The notes under the pieces are model-generated. The model was given only the letters and a program-made list of their open reading frames with translations, made no database searches and was not told the DNA's origin. A DNA stretch of 41,520 nt from a virus, in the IMG/VR virus record IMGVR_UViG_3300027852_000078, positions 1 through 41,520 of that record; one strand, 5' to 3'. Positions 13,762-31,048 of this stretch are shown here, one piece after another (the first letter of the stretch is position 1; each line of letters begins with the position of its first letter). The position numbers and the translations under genes were made by a program.

Positions 13762-14295
13762 ATGAGTACAAAAGTAGTAACAGGTAAAGTACGATTCAGC
13801 TATGCGCACGTATTTACACCTACAGCAATCGACGAGGGGGCAGACCCTAAATATAGTGTTAACCTTATCATATCGAAAGACGATACGACGACTATAGAAA
13901 AAATCGAGGAGGCCGTGGAGGCAGCCAAACAACTAGGTAAGACCTCAAAATGGAACGGTAAACTACCACCAAAATTAAAACTACCTCTAAGAGACGGAGA
14001 CGAAGAGAGACCGGACGACGAGAACTACGAAAACTGCTATTTCATTAATGCCAGTAGCCGCAACAAACCCGGTATCGTAGACCGTAACAGGGACGAACTA
14101 ATGACAAAAGAAGAGTTTTATAGTGGTTGTTTCGGTAGAGTCTCTATTAACTTCTATCCTTTTAATGTTTCCGGTAATAAAGGAATAGCCGCAGGTCTTA
14201 ATAATCTACAGAAACTAGAAGACGGAGAACCACTAGCAGGAGGGACTTCTGCGGCAGAGGACTTCGCCGAAGACTTCGACGACGATTTAATGTAG
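13762..14295 (+). CDS. DUF2815 family ssDNA-binding-like protein
   Basis: This 177-residue protein belongs to DUF2815, small OB-fold-like proteins replacing SSB in this type of replication cassette. Recognisable parts are the opening TGKVRFSYAHVFTP, KYSVNLIISKDD, the basic RNKPGIVDRN loop, FYSGCFGRVSINFYPF and GIAAGLNNLQKLEDGEPLAGG. It ends in an acidic tail (EDFAEDFDDDLM) like the tails of SSB proteins that recruit partner enzymes. It lies between DUF2800 and DNA polymerase, the usual order. Its own promoter and a downstream terminator suggest higher expression than its neighbours. Confidence 0.85.
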   Translation: MSTKVVTGKVRFSYAHVFTPTAIDEGADPKYSVNLIISKDDTTTIEKIEEAVEAAKQLGKTSKWNGKLPPKLKLPLRDGDEERPDDENYENCYFINASSRNKPGIVDRNRDELMTKEEFYSGCFGRVSINFYPFNVSGNKGIAAGLNNLQKLEDGEPLAGGTSAAEDFAEDFDDDLM

Positions 14296-14336
14296 AAACA
14301 ACTCTTTATTTTTAGAGGAGGTATTCTCTCCTCGAT

Positions 14337-14379
14337 AATAAGCCGGAGTTTTGTACCGTATTACTCCGGCTTATTTTTT
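14337..14379 (+). terminator. Strong intrinsic terminator after DUF2815 gene
   Basis: A perfect 13-bp stem, AATAAGCCGGAGT (14337-14349) with ACTCCGGCTTATT (14363-14375), is followed by a T run to 14379. A smaller GAGGAG/CTCCTC hairpin (14315-14333) lies just upstream. The tRNA-like element begins on the next base, so either transcription reads through or the RNA locus has a start not recognised here. Confidence 0.85.
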
Positions 14380-14466
14380 GGCACTATAAGCTCAGCAGGT
14401 AGAGCTAACGCGTATCCCTTTTGTGAGGTTAGTCGTTGGTCCTTGGTTCGATTCCGAGTAGTGCTA
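14380..14466 (+). tRNA. tRNA-like element with over-long anticodon arm
   Basis: Three tRNA parts fold well. The acceptor GGCACTA (14380-14386) pairs with TAGTGCT (14459-14465), followed by A as discriminator. The D arm is AGCTC (14389-14393) with GAGCT (14402-14406) around a GG-containing loop. The T arm is CTTGG (14442-14446) with CCGAG (14454-14458) around loop TTCGATT. The anticodon arm (14408-14436) has 29 bases instead of 17, best drawn as an imperfect 10-bp stem (ACG/CGT, mismatches, TATCC/GGTTA) with a 9-base loop CTTTTGTGA. No normal anticodon can be assigned. It may be a tRNA relic, a decoy, or an RNase P processing signal for the RNA that follows. Confidence 0.6.
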
Positions 14467-14709
14467 CTTAGATACTCTACTGGGATACAAATATCTTAAC
14501 ATTTTAAGTTAACCACAGGCCTGGCACTATGCGTGCTGGATATTGAAGCCTGGTAGAGTACAGAAATACGGCAACCTCTTGGACTAGGGTAACTGGGCAA
14601 GAGACCGTAGACTGGAGGGCAAGCGGAAGCCACAATACAGATAGAGGTATCGATAACCTGTAACGTGGACGAGGTAGACGAATACAATAAGCTACCGCCC
14701 TCTTTTTTT
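14467..14709 (+). ncRNA. Structured non-coding RNA upstream of DNA polymerase
   Basis: No reading frame with neighbour-like codon use fills this stretch, but it is dense in complementary segments. Domain 1: a 12-bp helix 14473-14484/14549-14560 encloses AATATC/GATATT (14490-14495/14539-14544) and hairpins TTAAC/GTTAA (14496-14512) and GGCAC/GTGCT (14523-14537). Domain 2: TACGG/CCGTA (14567-14571/14605-14609) stacked on CTCTTG/CAAGAG (14576-14581/14598-14603). Domain 3: GAGGGC/GCCCTC (14615-14620/14697-14702) encloses CCAC/GTGG (14630-14633/14665-14668) and TACAG/CTGTA (14636-14640/14658-14662). A run of seven T (14703-14709) ends it like a terminator. I do not recognise the family. Confidence 0.6.
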
Positions 14710-14728
14710 AAACTAACTTAATAGATAT

Positions 14729-16717
14729 ATGACCGAAGTACTCCATATCGACGTAGAAACCTTCAGTAGTGAAGACATAAGAACTGCAGGAGCATATAGG
14801 TACTGTCAATCGATAGACTTTGAAATTTTAATGATCGCCTACTCTTTTGGTAAAGGACCTATAAAAATGGTAGATCTATGCCAAGGAGAAAAAATACCCT
14901 TAGAATTTATAAACGCCCTTACCTGTGCATCGGTATTGAAAAAAGCACATAACGCAAACTTTGAACGTAACGCTTTTAAGGCCTACGGATACGACGTACC
15001 TATCCAGGAGTGGGAGTGTACCGCGGTAAAAGCAGGATATTGTGGTCTACCTATAGGCCTGGACGCTTTATCTAGGGTACTCCAGTTAGCCGATAAGGGT
15101 AAACTCGCTACAGGTAAGGCACTTATAAGGTACTTTTGTAGGCCTTGTAAACCAACAAAAACAAACGACCAAAGGTTAAGGAACATGCCCCACCACGACA
15201 CCGAAAAATGGGAGGAGTTTAAACTTTACTGTATAAACGATGTCGAGGCAGAGCGCACCGTCTCGGAGACAATAAAAGACTACTCGTTGACGGACGCAGA
15301 AGCAGATAACTATGTACTGGACCAGGAGATAAACGACCGAGGTATAGAGATAGACCTTATAATGGCTGCAAACGCCTACGAAATGGACCAAAAACACAGC
15401 GCCGTATTACTACAACAAATAAAAGAAATAACAGGTTTAGATAACCCTAATAGTCCTGCCCAGTTAAAAAAGTGGTTGAGCGAAGAGCTAGGACAAAACG
15501 TAACATCTTTAGCTAAAGGAATGATGCCGACACTTATCGAAACAGCTGGGGAAGGACTAGCAGGGGACGTATTGGCGTTAAGAGGTAAAGCATCTAAGAC
15601 TTCTATAAAAAAATATTTGGCGATGTTAAACTGTGTAGGGTCTGACGGCAGAGCAAGAGGTCTCCTGCAGTTCTACGGAGCGAACAGGACCGGACGATGG
15701 GCAGGCAGACTCGTACAACTACAGAACCTACCGCAGAACCACCTAAAAGAATTGGCAATGGCTCGCCAAGTTTTCGCGGCAGGGGACTACGACCTGGCGA
15801 AATTACTATACGATAATATCTCCAGTACCTTATCCCAGTTAATTCGTACGGCCTTTGTAGCTAAAAAAGGACATACTTTCGGAGTCGCAGATTTTAGTGC
15901 GATAGAGGCTCGTGTAATTGCTTGGCTTGCCAACGAAGTTTGGAGACTGGAAGTATTTAAGACTCACGGTAAAATATACGAAGCCTCCGCCTCTATGATG
16001 TTCGGAGTACCCCTGGAAGAGGTAACTAAAGGTAGCGACTACAGAGCCAAAGGTAAAGTAGCGGAGTTGGCCCTAGGATACCAGGGAGCGGTAGGTGCCC
16101 TTAAACAAATGGGAGGAGAACGTATGGGACTCTCTGAAACAGAAATGAAAACGATAGTTAAAAAATGGAGATCCAAAAACCCTGCTATCGTCGAAATGTG
16201 GAAGAAAATCGAAGCGGCCGCAATAAGAGCCACAAAAAACAAAAGAACTCCCGTACGATTAAGTAGGTACAAAGGGGTTACTTTCCTGCACGACGGACGA
16301 GTATTAACTCTTACTCTACCCTCGGGACGTAAACTTTTTTACCAAGAGGCGCAAGTGTATTCGAAAACTACTAAAAGTACCTACGGTCCCTGGACTAGAG
16401 ACGCGATAAGATACAAAGGTATAAGACAAGAGACCAAACAGTGGGGCTGGATAGATACGTATGGAGGTAAGTTAACGGAGAACATTATACAGGCCATTGC
16501 CAGGGACATTCTAGCGGATGCGATGTTACGCATAGATCGAAATGAGTACGACATAGTTATGCACGTACACGATGAAGCCGTATGCGAGCTCCCTATAGAA
16601 GACGCGGAGGACGATTTAAAAATAATAGAGGATATAATGTCTACTCCTATAGAATGGGCAAAGGGACTCCCCCTAGGAGCCGATGGATACATAACTCCTT
16701 TTTATAAAAAAGACTAA
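14729..16717 (+). CDS. DNA polymerase I (family A) with 3'-5' exonuclease domain
   Basis: This 662-residue replicative polymerase has an N-terminal DEDD exonuclease domain starting HIDVETFS (Asp8, Glu10), with HNANFERNAFKAYG and a later INDVEAERTV. The polymerase domain shows motif A at about residue 388 (DFSAIEARVIAWLA), motif B near 440-450 (RAKGKVAELALGYQG, with the conserved Lys and Tyr) and motif C near 614 (VMHVHDEAV). There is no 5'-3' exonuclease domain. It fits the short phage Pol I type found with DUF2800/DUF2815 and VapE. The start ATG follows the structured RNA by about 20 bases. Confidence 0.97.
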   Translation: MTEVLHIDVETFSSEDIRTAGAYRYCQSIDFEILMIAYSFGKGPIKMVDLCQGEKIPLEFINALTCASVLKKAHNANFERNAFKAYGYDVPIQEWECTAVKAGYCGLPIGLDALSRVLQLADKGKLATGKALIRYFCRPCKPTKTNDQRLRNMPHHDTEKWEEFKLYCINDVEAERTVSETIKDYSLTDAEADNYVLDQEINDRGIEIDLIMAANAYEMDQKHSAVLLQQIKEITGLDNPNSPAQLKKWLSEELGQNVTSLAKGMMPTLIETAGEGLAGDVLALRGKASKTSIKKYLAMLNCVGSDGRARGLLQFYGANRTGRWAGRLVQLQNLPQNHLKELAMARQVFAAGDYDLAKLLYDNISSTLSQLIRTAFVAKKGHTFGVADFSAIEARVIAWLANEVWRLEVFKTHGKIYEASASMMFGVPLEEVTKGSDYRAKGKVAELALGYQGAVGALKQMGGERMGLSETEMKTIVKKWRSKNPAIVEMWKKIEAAAIRATKNKRTPVRLSRYKGVTFLHDGRVLTLTLPSGRKLFYQEAQVYSKTTKSTYGPWTRDAIRYKGIRQETKQWGWIDTYGGKLTENIIQAIARDILADAMLRIDRNEYDIVMHVHDEAVCELPIEDAEDDLKIIEDIMSTPIEWAKGLPLGADGYITPFYKKD

Positions 16718-25456: not shown

Positions 25457-26305
25457 ATGAAAACAAAAATCACAATTAAGACCGTTTTTGGAAAAATAAT
25501 TTTTCAATACGAAAAAGAAAGTAACACTATAAAAGAAACTCTTTTAAAAGCCATCAAAGAAGGGGCTAACCTACGAGGGGCTAACTTAGAAGGGGCTGAC
25601 CTAGAAGGGGCTAACCTACGAGGGGCTAACCTACGAGGGGCTAACCTACGAGGGGCTAACTTAGAAGGGGCTGACCTAGAAGGGGCTAACCTACGAGGGG
25701 CTAACCTACGAGGGGCTAACCTACGAGGGGCTGACCTACTACGGGCTGACCTACTACGGGCTGACCTACTACGGGCTAACCTACGAGGGGCTAACCTAGA
25801 AGGGACTAACTTAGAAGGGGCTAACTTAGAAGGGGCTGACCTACTACGGGCTAACCTACGAGGGGCTAACTTAGAAGGGGCTAACCTACGAGGGGCTAAC
25901 TTAGAAGGGGCTGACCTACGAGGGGCTGACCTACGAGGGGCTAACCTACGAGGGGCTGACCTAGAAGGGGCTGACCTAGAAGGGGCTAACCTACGAGGGG
26001 CTAACTTAGAAGGGGCTGACCTACTACGGGCTGACCTACTACGGGCTAACCTACTACGGGCTAACCTACGAGGGGCTGACCTAGAAACTTCTATAAAAGT
26101 CCCTATTTTTTGTAAATGGGGTGTAGGTATTACCGATGATAAAATACATATAGGGTGCGAAAAAAGAACTATCGAGGAGTGGGATAGATTTTTTGTATCT
26201 AAAGAAGAGTTAGAAACTGCACGCGACACAAAAGAATTTAAACAGATAGAGGCCTGTTATTTAGCTTTTAAGGCCTACTACCTTCATATAAAAGACAATG
26301 GTTAA
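25457..26305 (+). CDS. Pentapeptide-repeat protein
   Basis: The 282-residue protein has a short N-terminal domain (about 36 residues), then about 35 pentapeptides of the A(N/D)L(R/E/L)(G/R) type. These should form a right-handed quadrilateral beta helix with Leu at the buried centre. The C-terminal domain (VPIFCKWGVGITDDKIHIGCEKRTIEEWDRFF) is a conserved module of phage pentapeptide proteins. Family members such as MfpA and Qnr mimic DNA and bind gyrase; whether this one does is unknown. The highly repetitive DNA implies copy-number variation. It overlaps the exonuclease gene by 8 bases. Confidence 0.9.
   Translation: MKTKITIKTVFGKIIFQYEKESNTIKETLLKAIKEGANLRGANLEGADLEGANLRGANLRGANLRGANLEGADLEGANLRGANLRGANLRGADLLRADLLRADLLRANLRGANLEGTNLEGANLEGADLLRANLRGANLEGANLRGANLEGADLRGADLRGANLRGADLEGADLEGANLRGANLEGADLLRADLLRANLLRANLRGADLETSIKVPIFCKWGVGITDDKIHIGCEKRTIEEWDRFFVSKEELETARDTKEFKQIEACYLAFKAYYLHIKDNG
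25564..26090 (+). repeat. 15-bp coding repeats of the pentapeptide gene
   Basis: Tandem 15-base units such as GGGGCTAACCTACGA, GGGGCTGACCTAGAA and GGGCTGACCTACTAC encode pentapeptides. Several adjacent units are identical at every base, including synonymous positions, which points to recent expansion and conversion. Confidence 0.95.
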
Positions 26306-26876
26306 AATATTCTACGATACGGAAACTACAGGCGTAAAGCCTTTGCGGCACAGCATACACCAACTGGCAGGATTGGTCGAGGTAAACGGTAAAGTAGTAG
26401 AGGAGTTCGATATTCGTATGGCTCCACACCCGAAGGCCTTAATAGATATCCAGGCCCTCCGTATCGCGAAAGTAACACGAGAGCAGGTTCTAGGATACCA
26501 ACCTATGTCGCACGCCCTAAAACAGTTTGTTAACATCGTAGGAAAGTATGTAGATCCTTACGACAAAAACACCCGGGCGTATTTAGTTGGTTTTAATAAC
26601 CGTTCTTTCGACGACGAGTTTCTAGTTATACTGTTCGCTATCTGTGATAACGATGCCCTGTTTAGTTACTTTTGGCACAATACTTTAGACACCATGGTTT
26701 TGGCCTCTCAGTATTTAATCGACAGACGGACTAGTATGCCCTCCTTTAAACTTAAAAGGGTGGCGACTGAGTTAGGTATCGAATACGACAAAAACGGTTT
26801 ACACGACGCTTTATTCGATGCCAGGCTAACTAGAAAAATATACCGTATTGTTACGGGACTAGATTTTGAATTATGA
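26298..26876 (+). CDS. DnaQ-like 3'-5' exonuclease (DEDDh)
   Basis: This 192-residue enzyme shows all exonuclease motifs: Exo I FYDTETTG (Asp7, Glu9), Exo II GFNNRSFDDEFL near residue 105, and Exo III GLHDALFDARLT near residue 170, with His-x4-Asp as in DEDDh enzymes. The order and length fit RNase T/DNA polymerase III epsilon-type exonucleases (exodeoxyribonuclease I-like LGFNN motif). It may proofread, degrade host DNA or trim single strands. It overlaps the next gene by ATGA. Confidence 0.9.
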   Translation: MVKIFYDTETTGVKPLRHSIHQLAGLVEVNGKVVEEFDIRMAPHPKALIDIQALRIAKVTREQVLGYQPMSHALKQFVNIVGKYVDPYDKNTRAYLVGFNNRSFDDEFLVILFAICDNDALFSYFWHNTLDTMVLASQYLIDRRTSMPSFKLKRVATELGIEYDKNGLHDALFDARLTRKIYRIVTGLDFEL

Positions 26877-27070
26877 AACGAAAAAAGAAAAAAGTAGTAT
26901 TAACTAGATACTCCATTCCAGTAAAAGTATTTAAAGGGGTTAAACAGATGGCGGACTATATCTCCGACGTTTTGAAACTGGACGAGACCAACGTAAGTAA
27001 AGAAGGGTACGACTTTTATTACGTTAGCAATGTACGTGCCTTTTTAATAAAATTAATACATAATATTTAA
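26873..27070 (+). CDS. Small basic hypothetical protein (65 aa)
   Basis: The protein begins with a strongly basic run (KRKKKKVVLTRYSIPVKVFK) and continues as a small alpha/beta domain (MADYISDVLKLDETNVSKEGYDFYYVSNVRAFL). It might bind nucleic acid. No family is recognised. It is coupled to the exonuclease by a 4-base overlap. Confidence 0.6.
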   Translation: MKRKKKKVVLTRYSIPVKVFKGVKQMADYISDVLKLDETNVSKEGYDFYYVSNVRAFLIKLIHNI

Positions 27071-27074
27071 TACC

Positions 27075-27746
27075 ATGTTAAAAAATCTAGATCAACACTA
27101 CACAGCGAACGCGATAAGAACCTACACAGGTAAAGCCTTCGACATAACTATATTAGATCCGAAAACCATTTGTATAGAGGATATAGCACACGCCCTTAGT
27201 CGTACCCCTAGATGGTCCGGACATACTGAGAAAATATTTACGGTAGCCCAGCACAGCGTCTTAGCTTGTTTACGTGCAACAGAAAAAAATAAACTTGCAG
27301 CGTTACTACATGATGCGTCCGAGGCATATCTACAGGATATTGCTAAACCTATCAAAGTACTACTTCCCGACTATCAAAGACTGGAGGCTAACCTTATGGA
27401 TGCTATAGCTTTTAAATTCGGATTCGATTTACCTCTCGATGAAGAAGTAAAACTCATAGATAGAGAACTTTTGCAAGTAGAATGGGATATGTTTGTGATA
27501 CCGTCTAAAGAAGAAATAGAAGACCCTTATAGTGTTCTTCCCGATTTTTGGAGTCCGGACTATGCAAAAGAATACTTTTTGGGTATGTATCAGCAATTTA
27601 AAAAATACTGTGATTGTGGCAGGATACACGAAAATGTACCACAAGACGGTTACGAGCACTACTGTTCCGATTGCCACAAAGTTATACGAGACTGCCTAGG
27701 ACCAAAACCTATGGACGATAACGATTATAATTGCTCTACGTTATAA
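27075..27746 (+). CDS. HD-domain phosphohydrolase with C-terminal zinc ribbon
   Basis: The 223-residue protein has an HD fold of the phage YfbR-like type: metal ligands His60 (VAQHSVLA), His79-Asp80 (LLHDASEAYLQDIAKP) and a distal Asp in LIDRELLQVEWD. The opening (YTGKAFDITILDPKTICIEDIAHALSRTPRWSGHT) is typical of this phage group. Such enzymes act on nucleoside monophosphates or dNTPs. Residues about 180-210 add a separate four-Cys zinc ribbon (CDCGRIHE, CSDCHKVIRDC). It probably alters nucleotide pools or hydrolyses a signalling nucleotide; the substrate is unknown. Confidence 0.85.
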   Translation: MLKNLDQHYTANAIRTYTGKAFDITILDPKTICIEDIAHALSRTPRWSGHTEKIFTVAQHSVLACLRATEKNKLAALLHDASEAYLQDIAKPIKVLLPDYQRLEANLMDAIAFKFGFDLPLDEEVKLIDRELLQVEWDMFVIPSKEEIEDPYSVLPDFWSPDYAKEYFLGMYQQFKKYCDCGRIHENVPQDGYEHYCSDCHKVIRDCLGPKPMDDNDYNCSTL

Positions 27747-28993: not shown

Positions 28994-29265
28994 AAAAATA
29001 CTATATAATTTACAGACTAATAGTCGTACTGGTTATGCTATCCCTTTTTATTATGGTACTCTGCGCAATGGCCTGGCTTTTATCCGACCCTCTGAACGGA
29101 CGGGGAACTCCCGCACCTGTTTGGTTAAATAATTGGTTTATAGTGAACATAACAGGAGTTACCGTAGTAGCACTAATGTCGGTACCAGGAATATTAAAGT
29201 ATCTAAAAAAGATAGGGTTTAAACTCCTAGGTAGAATATTAATATTTATAATGAGAGGCAAGTAA
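28990..29265 (+). CDS. Small membrane protein, two TM segments
   Basis: Residues about 8-31 (YRLIVVLVMLSLFIMVLCAM) and 49-68 (FIVNITGVTVVALMSVPGIL) are hydrophobic, and the C terminus is basic. Positive ends suggest both termini are cytoplasmic. It sits directly upstream of the MT-A70 methyltransferase (TAATG overlap), far from the lysis cassette, so a holin role is unlikely. Confidence 0.6.
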   Translation: MKKYYIIYRLIVVLVMLSLFIMVLCAMAWLLSDPLNGRGTPAPVWLNNWFIVNITGVTVVALMSVPGILKYLKKIGFKLLGRILIFIMRGK

Positions 29266-29852
29266 TGAAGTACAATGTAATTTATGCCGATCCTGCTTGG
29301 GATCAAAAAGCAGGCAGGCCTTTGAGCGGAGGATATAAAAAAGAAAACGGAGTACAAGTTTTTAACCCTAAAAGTAACAAATCTGCAGACTTACCTTATA
29401 ACGTTATGAAGTTTGAAGACATCGTAGCACTGCCTGTAAAAAAACTAGCCGACGCTAACTGCCATCTATATCTATGGGTTACGAATAAATACCTACTGAG
29501 AGCCGAACAGGTAATAAAATCGTGGGGGTTTAAATACTCTACGACTTTAGTATGGGTCAAAAAACCCATAGGGGGAGGCATGGGAGGTACGTTTAAGGTG
29601 TCTACCGAGTTTCTAATATTCGCTACAAAAGGCAAAGTTAACGACCTGGTAATAGAGAAAGTAAACGGTACTTGGTTCGATATAAAAAGACAATACGTAA
29701 ACGGCTCTCCTTGCCACTCTAAAAAACCCGAATTTTTCTACGAGTTAATAGAGAAAGTATCCAACGGAAATAAAATAGAATTGTTCGCAAGAGAGAAACG
29801 TAGCGGGTGGGACTCGTGGGGAGACGAAATACCGGACTCTATTAATTTTTAA
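29265..29852 (+). CDS. MT-A70 family adenine-N6 methyltransferase, DPAW variant
   Basis: This 195-residue enzyme opens with YNVIYADPAW, the catalytic motif IV of MT-A70 methyltransferases (usually DPPW; here the second Pro is Ala). It continues with MKFEDIVALPVKKLADANCHLYLWVTNKYLL, WGFKYSTTLVWVKKP and the family C terminus KPEFFYELIEKVSNGNKIELFAREKRSGWDSWGDEI with the AdoMet-binding segment. It should methylate N6 of adenine in phage DNA, possibly protecting it from restriction. It is the only intact methyltransferase here, alongside two relics at 22.4-22.7 kb. Confidence 0.88.
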   Translation: MKYNVIYADPAWDQKAGRPLSGGYKKENGVQVFNPKSNKSADLPYNVMKFEDIVALPVKKLADANCHLYLWVTNKYLLRAEQVIKSWGFKYSTTLVWVKKPIGGGMGGTFKVSTEFLIFATKGKVNDLVIEKVNGTWFDIKRQYVNGSPCHSKKPEFFYELIEKVSNGNKIELFAREKRSGWDSWGDEIPDSINF

Positions 29853-30099: not shown

Positions 30100-30159
30100 C
30101 TCACATACCTAAAATCTCCTGGCGGCCGCCGAGTCCTGGGTAAACTATAAGGAACAAAG

Positions 30160-30178
30160 GTAAACAATCATTGTTTAC
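30160..30178. promoter_or_regulatory. 19-bp perfect palindrome GTAAACAAT-C-ATTGTTTAC
   Basis: Nine-base arms separated by a single C form an exact inverted repeat built from the same 9-mer as the tandem pair at 30215-30232. An inverted pair suits a dimeric DNA-binding protein. Confidence 0.7.
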
Positions 30179-30214
30179 TCCTTATGTCCTATTAGTCCTG
30201 CGTTGAGGTACGAT

Positions 30215-30232
30215 GTAAACAATGTAAACAAT
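30215..30232 (+). promoter_or_regulatory. Tandem 9-bp site GTAAACAAT x2
   Basis: Two exact head-to-tail copies of GTAAACAAT, followed by an A-rich stretch ending ACTATAATAG, match 11111-11144 at all but three of 34 positions. Confidence 0.7.
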
Positions 30233-30499
30233 AAAAAGACTATAATAGGTTAAAGATAATAAACAGTATTTATATGTAAGAATATACGTACATAAAAACG
30301 TACATATACGCATAGGACTATATAGGAATCATTGTTTATATCGTTTCTTTGTTTACCTTTACTCTTAATGTTCTAATACTCAGAGAATTAAAAGGGAACA
30401 ATACCTCCAGGAGACCCCCGACAACTTTATAACTTATTAATACTTAGCGGTTTATAAATTATTTACCTAGGCGGCTATGGTATTTTGAACGTTTTATCG

Positions 30500-30507
30500 T
30501 AGATTTG
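30500..30507 (+). promoter_or_regulatory. TAnnTTTG promoter element (TAGATTTG) of terminase operon
   Basis: TAGATTTG is an exact match to the Bacteroidota -7 consensus and lies 22 bases before the terminase small subunit ATG. A TTTTG at 30483-30487 is too close (12 bases) to be a standard -33 element. Confidence 0.6.
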
Positions 30508-30529
30508 TCGTATAATTCTACCGGTAGAT

Positions 30530-31048
30530 ATGTACACACCCGACGAGATAAAACAGTTTAAAGCCTTCATAATCAACGAGGTAATAGGGGGTAAAAGCCT
30601 GGAGTCTCTTATACGAAACGACGTAGACATGAACCTGCCCTCTAGTCCTACGATATACGGCTGGCTCAGAGAGACCACCAGTACAGGGGAGGCTAATAGT
30701 AAATACGACGCCGAGTTCTTTAGCGACTACGCGCATGCGCGCGCAATAAGAGCTAGTAAGATATTCGACGATATGTTAACAATAGCCGACGACGGGAGTA
30801 ACGATACTTATGTCGATCCCGAGTCCGGTAAAACCTTCACAGACTACGACGTAGTACAGCGATCTAAACTGAGAGTCGATACTCGAAAATGGATACTCGC
30901 CCGCATGGATTCTAAACGATTTGGAGATAAGATAGAGACCACTCTCCAGGGAGGAGATAAACCTATACAGACCGTAGACTACTCCAAACTAAGCGACAAC
31001 GCCCTGGAAGAGATAGCGAAACTAACGTCCTCGAAGCATGGGAGTTAA
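30530..31048 (+). CDS. Terminase small subunit
   Basis: The 172-residue protein has an N-terminal helix-turn-helix (KSLESLIRNDVDMNLPSSPTIYGWLRE) for binding the packaging site. A conserved small-terminase block follows: DAEFFSDYAHARAIRASKIFDDMLTIADD, then VQRSKLRVDTRKWILARMDSKRFGDKIE. These blocks are characteristic of the terminase small subunit-like family of Proteobacteria and Bacteroidota phages. It overlaps the large subunit by 11 bases. Confidence 0.88.
   Translation: MYTPDEIKQFKAFIINEVIGGKSLESLIRNDVDMNLPSSPTIYGWLRETTSTGEANSKYDAEFFSDYAHARAIRASKIFDDMLTIADDGSNDTYVDPESGKTFTDYDVVQRSKLRVDTRKWILARMDSKRFGDKIETTLQGGDKPIQTVDYSKLSDNALEEIAKLTSSKHGS

Follow-up and report, generated by a model that had tools for sequence, protein, structure and literature searches.

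The window, i.e., the whole stretch of DNA analyzed, is a 41.5-kb virus record in which the plus strand carries all large genes. Between the ssb gene and the gene for a family A DNA polymerase lies a gap of 433 bases without a plausible gene. The gap consists, in order, of a hairpin with a T run, a cloverleaf, a structured RNA and 19 bases preceding the ATG of the polymerase (Table 1). An earlier reading made from the letters alone (hereafter, the sequence-only reading) had described the RNA as a gene-free stretch that ends in seven T about 20 bases before the polymerase, and this description agrees with our results. The longest ORF inside the stretch comprises 63 aa, starts with TTG and is read from the minus strand, the T run occupies 14703–14709, and the ATG at 14729 is 19 nt past it.

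Table 1. Coordinates of the ssb–polymerase gap, its elements and the flanking genes in the window.
Feature	Position	Strand	Basis or remark
ssb, Enc34-type ssDNA-binding protein (upstream gene)	13762–14295	+	Pfam PF10991, E 1.4e-72
Terminator-like hairpin AAGCCGGAGT/ACTCCGGCTT with T run	14340–14379	+	Sequence; z -5.2; ends one base before the tRNA-like element
tRNA mimic	14380–14466	+	Rfam tRNA 37.3 bits; cloverleaf MFE
Mimic, acceptor	14380–14386/14459–14465
Mimic, D arm	14389–14406
Mimic, altered anticodon arm	14407–14437		31 nt
Mimic, T arm	14442–14458
Structured RNA, putative cargo	14467–14709	+	Fold and z-score; 243 nt
Domain 1, two hairpins within a 12-bp helix	14473–14560	+	z -3.4
12-bp helix of domain 1	14473–14484/14549–14560		Includes two G-U pairs
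Domain 2, stem stacking TACGG/CCGTA on CTCTTG/CAAGAG	14561–14614	+	z -2.9
TACGG/CCGTA pairing of domain 2	14567–14571/14605–14609
Domain 3, inner hairpins under a GAGGGC/GCCCTC closing stem, then U7	14615–14709	+	z -3.0
GAGGGC/GCCCTC pairing of domain 3	14615–14620/14697–14702		CCAC/GTGG and TACAG/CTGTA also present
Family A DNA polymerase (downstream gene)	14729–16717	+	Pfam PF00476, E 3.7e-27

Based on the Rfam tRNA model (RF00005), the cloverleaf scores 37.3 bits against a cut-off of 29 (E 2e-6) and ends directly before 14467, so the tRNA-like element mentioned in the sequence-only reading does exist. Its anticodon arm is altered: it lacks the 5-bp stem and 7-nt loop and, compared with the Rfam model, contains 23 bases instead of 9 in the anticodon-arm insert. 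When the features of a functional tRNA (5-bp stem, 7-nt loop, U33 and purine 37) were sought, no canonical anticodon arm was found in this element, and ARAGORN reports no tRNA at its position. A search of both strands revealed no other such element in the window. The discriminator is A14466, and the next base, C14467, is the first base of the reported RNA. The tRNA-like element is real but is not a normal tRNA, and it is referred to here as a tRNA mimic.

The MFE of the 243-nt RNA is -72.0 kcal/mol (z -3.25), a value equaled by 2 of 200 dinucleotide shuffles. All helices that had been named in its three domains were located, and all of them belong to the MFE structure; the comparison with shuffled sequences, which had been named as a possible refutation, placed the RNA ahead of nearly all of them. 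It should be noted that 14467–14709 is a single sequence, whose own structure is predicted from folding. Folded as one 332-nt molecule, the mimic and the cargo gave a z of only -1.3, little better than shuffles, while some other tiles of the genome reached z -4 to -5 (few shuffles); for this reason, folding alone is moderate evidence. Given the weak joint fold and a z of -0.6 for the cargo of the related locus L173, folding energy by itself would not carry the claim. The terminal U7 is preceded by a long-range closing stem that spans about 80 nt, not by a compact terminator hairpin, and terminator scans of the window found no such hairpin before the polymerase.

The RNA had been said to belong to no known family, and an RNA family search gave no Rfam match for 14467–14709 even at E values up to 10. 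The covariance models of GOLLD and ROOL likewise had no match to the region, whether the gathering score or a limit of E 10 was applied. No homologues were detected among 50,697 phage records (word size 11) or among 89 other gaps (nhmmer --max and short-word BLAST), and one exact 17-mer had no match in IMG/VR. The central statement of the sequence-only reading, a structured RNA upstream of the phage DNA polymerase, is therefore retained as an Rfam-unmatched RNA directly upstream of the family A enzyme. In the whole-window scan, the sole Rfam match at the gathering score was a DUF805b RNA (RF02914, 24709–24743, plus strand, 38.8 bits). The right half of the window also has genes for a pentapeptide-repeat protein (25457–26305) and an MT-A70 methyltransferase (29265–29852). 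A 430-nt gap (30100–30529) that precedes the gene for the terminase small subunit contains GTAAACA/TGTTTAC words repeated in both orientations (fold z -2.8) and is a candidate origin or operator region.

What the sequence-only reading had missed is that the tRNA-like element, which it did see, recurs in the same gap of related phages. Related polymerase and ssb loci were collected from IMG/VR, and the gap was extracted from 182 of them; a scan of genome contigs gave one distant polymerase. Using a descriptor consisting of a T stem, a TTCRA loop and a 7-bp acceptor, we found an acceptor plus T-arm element in 33 of 43 distinct related gaps (at least 90 nt long, polymerase identity at least 53%, a cut chosen after seeing the data). 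In mononucleotide shuffles of 71 gaps, it occurred in 1.7 on average. Below 53% identity only 5 of 28 gaps score, although the element is also present in L143 and L144 (51–52%). At least 3 of the 10 misses show the element by eye or in ARAGORN (L159, L171 and L202). Near-identical gaps were counted separately (L148/L152/L153, L160/L161 and L034/L035), which somewhat reduces the effective number.

The element is confined to one place and one strand. All 25 matches to a strict descriptor fell within the gaps (14.0 kb in total); the flanks yielded no match on the same strand (252.9 kb), and neither did the opposite strand (266.9 kb). The Rfam tRNA model, applied to 15 whole phage records, gave nine matches, all of this mimic kind. 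A hairpin with a T run precedes the mimic in 13 of these 33 gaps, whereas shuffles gave 2.2. Downstream, terminators show only a slight enrichment overall (11 of 19, compared with 7.0 in shuffles), with strong ones ahead of the polymerase in L148, L152, L153, L175 and L178. In 14 of the 33 gaps, the last mimic lies 9–38 nt before the polymerase and leaves no room for cargo, which indicates that the locus does not depend on cargo.

Most mimics escape standard annotation: ARAGORN reported nothing in 44 of 58 gaps. In L160, L161, L164 (P2559Y type), L196, L208, L178 and L159, it read anticodons of 4 nt (gcaa, actg, ggtc, taaa) or 2 nt (gc). Several other arrangements were observed. L165, L168, L175 and L197 carry cargo-sized inserts of 102–166 nt within the mimic, between the acceptor and the T arm, and not after it. 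The gap of L028 (L235) contains three consecutive tRNA-like pieces, the third of which appears by eye to be circularly permuted, with the T arm right after the 5′ acceptor strand (TTAGGGGTAAGGTTCGAGTCCTT...ACCCCTAA).

Comparison with the real tRNAs of crAss001 reveals which parts of the mimics are lost. A canonical anticodon arm was found in 5 of 47 mimics versus 19 of 20 crAss001 tRNAs (Fisher p 3e-11), and a D arm in 33 of 47 versus 18 of 20. The distance from the acceptor to the T stem is 8–166 nt in mimics and 39–44 or 55–63 nt in crAss001 tRNAs; only 6 of 42 mimics have a distance of 39–44 nt. L148, L152 and L153 are acceptor–T minihelices and nothing else, in L111 and L177 the D and T arms are present and the anticodon arm is absent, while L183 (tRNA-Cys) and L176 (tRNA-Ser) resemble intact tRNAs. 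The base after the discriminator is nearly always C (N73-C74) in mimics, as in crAss001 tRNAs, in which CCA is likewise mostly not encoded. An N73-C[AT]A trailer was considered as a special mark of the mimics and rejected, being normal for crAss001 tRNAs too.

Since the anticodon arm is lost while the acceptor, the T arm and mostly the D arm stay, the parts read by maturation enzymes are kept and the codon-reading part is not. As judged from sequence, what is kept is the acceptor and the elbow, the parts used by RNase P, RNase Z and CCA-adding enzymes (PMC4810234). RNase Z matures pre-tRNAs without CCA and recognizes the elbow (PMC4810234). A fixed slot that keeps these parts and drops the codon reader is a natural experiment on what the enzymes need.

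A second RNA was found in the gaps of relatives. A motif centered on GTTAATC is present in 15 loci, and we modeled it as an H-type pseudoknot (model R1, NNUUUU-GGUUUAW-AAANN-GUUAAUC-WUAGRCC). The model was built manually over 45 columns before being tested, and it fits 14 distinct sequences with 100% of cells paired and 17 changed on both sides. Its covariation score of 0.376 exceeds by far that of every slid version; shuffles scored 0.112. MAFFT and RNAalifold applied to 265-nt segments of these RNAs recovered the central hairpin only. There was no Rfam match for the pseudoknot RNA in the loci tested, and a sensitive Rfam search of the examined relatives gave tRNA only, together with a sub-threshold RAGATH-7 match in L137. 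The predicted pseudoknot RNA is a new family, absent from Rfam.

In several loci, the pseudoknot lies between two tRNA mimics. A further copy is located in a 52-kb phage record (L137/L245), where it adjoins a mimic without an anticodon arm and is divergent from the terminase small-subunit gene. No homologue of this polymerase was detected in that record, and the pseudoknot RNA is hence not tied to the polymerase and is not simply its leader. The window itself has no match to the R1 covariance model in 14290–14730 (the best window-wide hit, E 0.54, lies elsewhere), and a resemblance of 14501–14523 to the motif, noticed by eye, was rejected by the same model.

Based on the above results, we suggest that the locus consists of two halves, the mimic and its cargo, and may operate as a small RNA factory. 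The observations from which this proposal starts are the structures, their recurrence, the strand and place specificity and the loss of the anticodon arm; cleavage, release and trans action are what we infer from them. Cleavage would be by host RNase P on the 5′ side of G14380 and by host RNase Z on the 3′ side of A14466, giving the 5′ end of the cargo at C14467. The product would be a free 243-nt RNA that begins with C14467 and ends in the U run at 14709, with most transcripts ending ahead of the polymerase gene. The released RNA would probably act in trans on a host factor. We give an even chance to this scheme of mimic maturation by host RNase P and RNase Z, with the consequent release of a probably trans-acting RNA. 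The persistence of the slot while close relatives swap cargo fits a host-facing trans role, and because the cargo sequence is wholly replaced between related phages, a role in an arms race with the host is likelier than control of the polymerase. More tentatively, and at somewhat less than an even chance, the mimics may represent an undescribed and widespread class of phage RNA genes. In this class, anticodon-arm-deficient mimics would occupy one fixed slot in Bacteroidota-type phages, and host tRNA maturation would release exchangeable trans-acting cargo, such as the 243-nt RNA or the pseudoknot family. Croceibacter phage P2559Y, an isolate whose genome is sequenced (NC_023614), has a related gap at 26621–27339 that carries no annotation, which makes the idea directly testable in the laboratory.

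The main rival is an action in cis. Mitochondrial transcripts are punctuated by tRNAs, and the mimic could similarly be a processing signal that splits the ssb–polymerase transcript, the ssb mRNA ending at the hairpin and the polymerase mRNA starting near the ATG, with the 243-nt RNA as a spacer or as a 5′ leader tuning polymerase expression. The place and strand fixed across the clade, the 14 of 33 gaps with a mimic alone 9–38 nt before the polymerase and the hairpin with a T run ahead of the mimic in 13 of 33 would all suit such punctuation. However, it leaves unexplained the conserved pseudoknot cargo, its copy in the L137 record, where no homologue of this polymerase was detected, and the terminators between cargo and polymerase, and we consider it unlikely, though deserving of attention. 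Among the four roles listed in the sequence-only reading, the polymerase leader is accordingly weakened by the pseudoknot and mimic of L137, while a trans-acting RNA is still the most likely. It is improbable that the locus is a relic, in which tRNA genes captured repeatedly at the gap decay without function and the folded RNA is a chance structure. The scaffolds do vary between phages, L183 and L176 look like intact tRNA-Cys and tRNA-Ser, and a z of about -3 is moderate. Decay, however, is expected to be equal on all arms, whereas the acceptor and T arm stay paired and the anticodon arm alone is lost; N73-C74 is retained, and the pseudoknot shows 100% pairing along with 17 double compensatory cells.

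The other two roles named in the sequence-only reading fare worse. Defenses that act by cleaving tRNAs are known to be overcome by phage tRNAs (PMC11555353), and in this highly variable locus the mimic might titrate a host tRNA-targeting defense factor or replace a depleted tRNA. Yet the known targets are mostly in the anticodon loop, which is missing here, and a mimic that has no anticodon cannot stand in for a tRNA. The decoy role that had been suggested is unlikely with respect to anticodon nucleases, since the anticodon arm is the very part that these elements lose; a variant in which the factor reads the acceptor or elbow may be considered, and the counter-defense role as a whole seems quite improbable. 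The position between ssb and the polymerase would also suit a replication primer or origin RNA for the adjacent enzyme. When the complement of the mimic 3′ end was searched for in the window (up to three mismatches), only the mimic itself matched, so that a retrovirus-like tRNA primer is unsupported. The GC skew shows no switch at the gap, the repeats at 30100–30530 are a better origin candidate, and we regard a primer or origin RNA as very improbable.

Plant RNA viruses, together with one mouse herpesvirus, provide well-known cases of tRNA mimicry. We found no report of it as a regular trait of tailed phages among the open-access papers searched, and novelty was judged by Rfam and ARAGORN as well. 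The tRNAs encoded by phages such as T5 and crAss001 share cloverleaf parts and the N73-C74 trailer with the mimics but differ in possessing the canonical anticodon arm (5 of 47 in mimics) and in a spacing from acceptor to T stem of 39–44 (or 55–63) nt instead of 8–166. GOLLD and ROOL are large structured phage RNAs of unknown function that are often near tRNAs or contain them (PMC12286853). They are much larger than the RNA of the window (GOLLD often exceeds 800 nt), which has no Rfam match, and the tRNAs of the phage gaps, unlike theirs, are abnormal and confined to one fixed gap. Some recently evolved long noncoding RNAs recruit RNase P by tRNA mimicry for the maturation of their ends (PMC4810234). 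The use of a tRNA mimic to process the end of another RNA is common to both, being predicted here, but in the phage locus the cargo is downstream of the mimic. The TMER RNAs of MHV68 have 200–250 nt, consist of a tRNA-like element directly followed by hairpins and are processed by tRNase Z (PMC4838037). They differ in belonging to a mouse herpesvirus, in being Pol III transcripts and in involving Dicer; there is no homology, and processing in the phage is predicted. With 87 nt of tRNA-like element followed at once by 243 nt of structured RNA in the phage, the TMER RNAs appear to be the closest working analogue of the locus.
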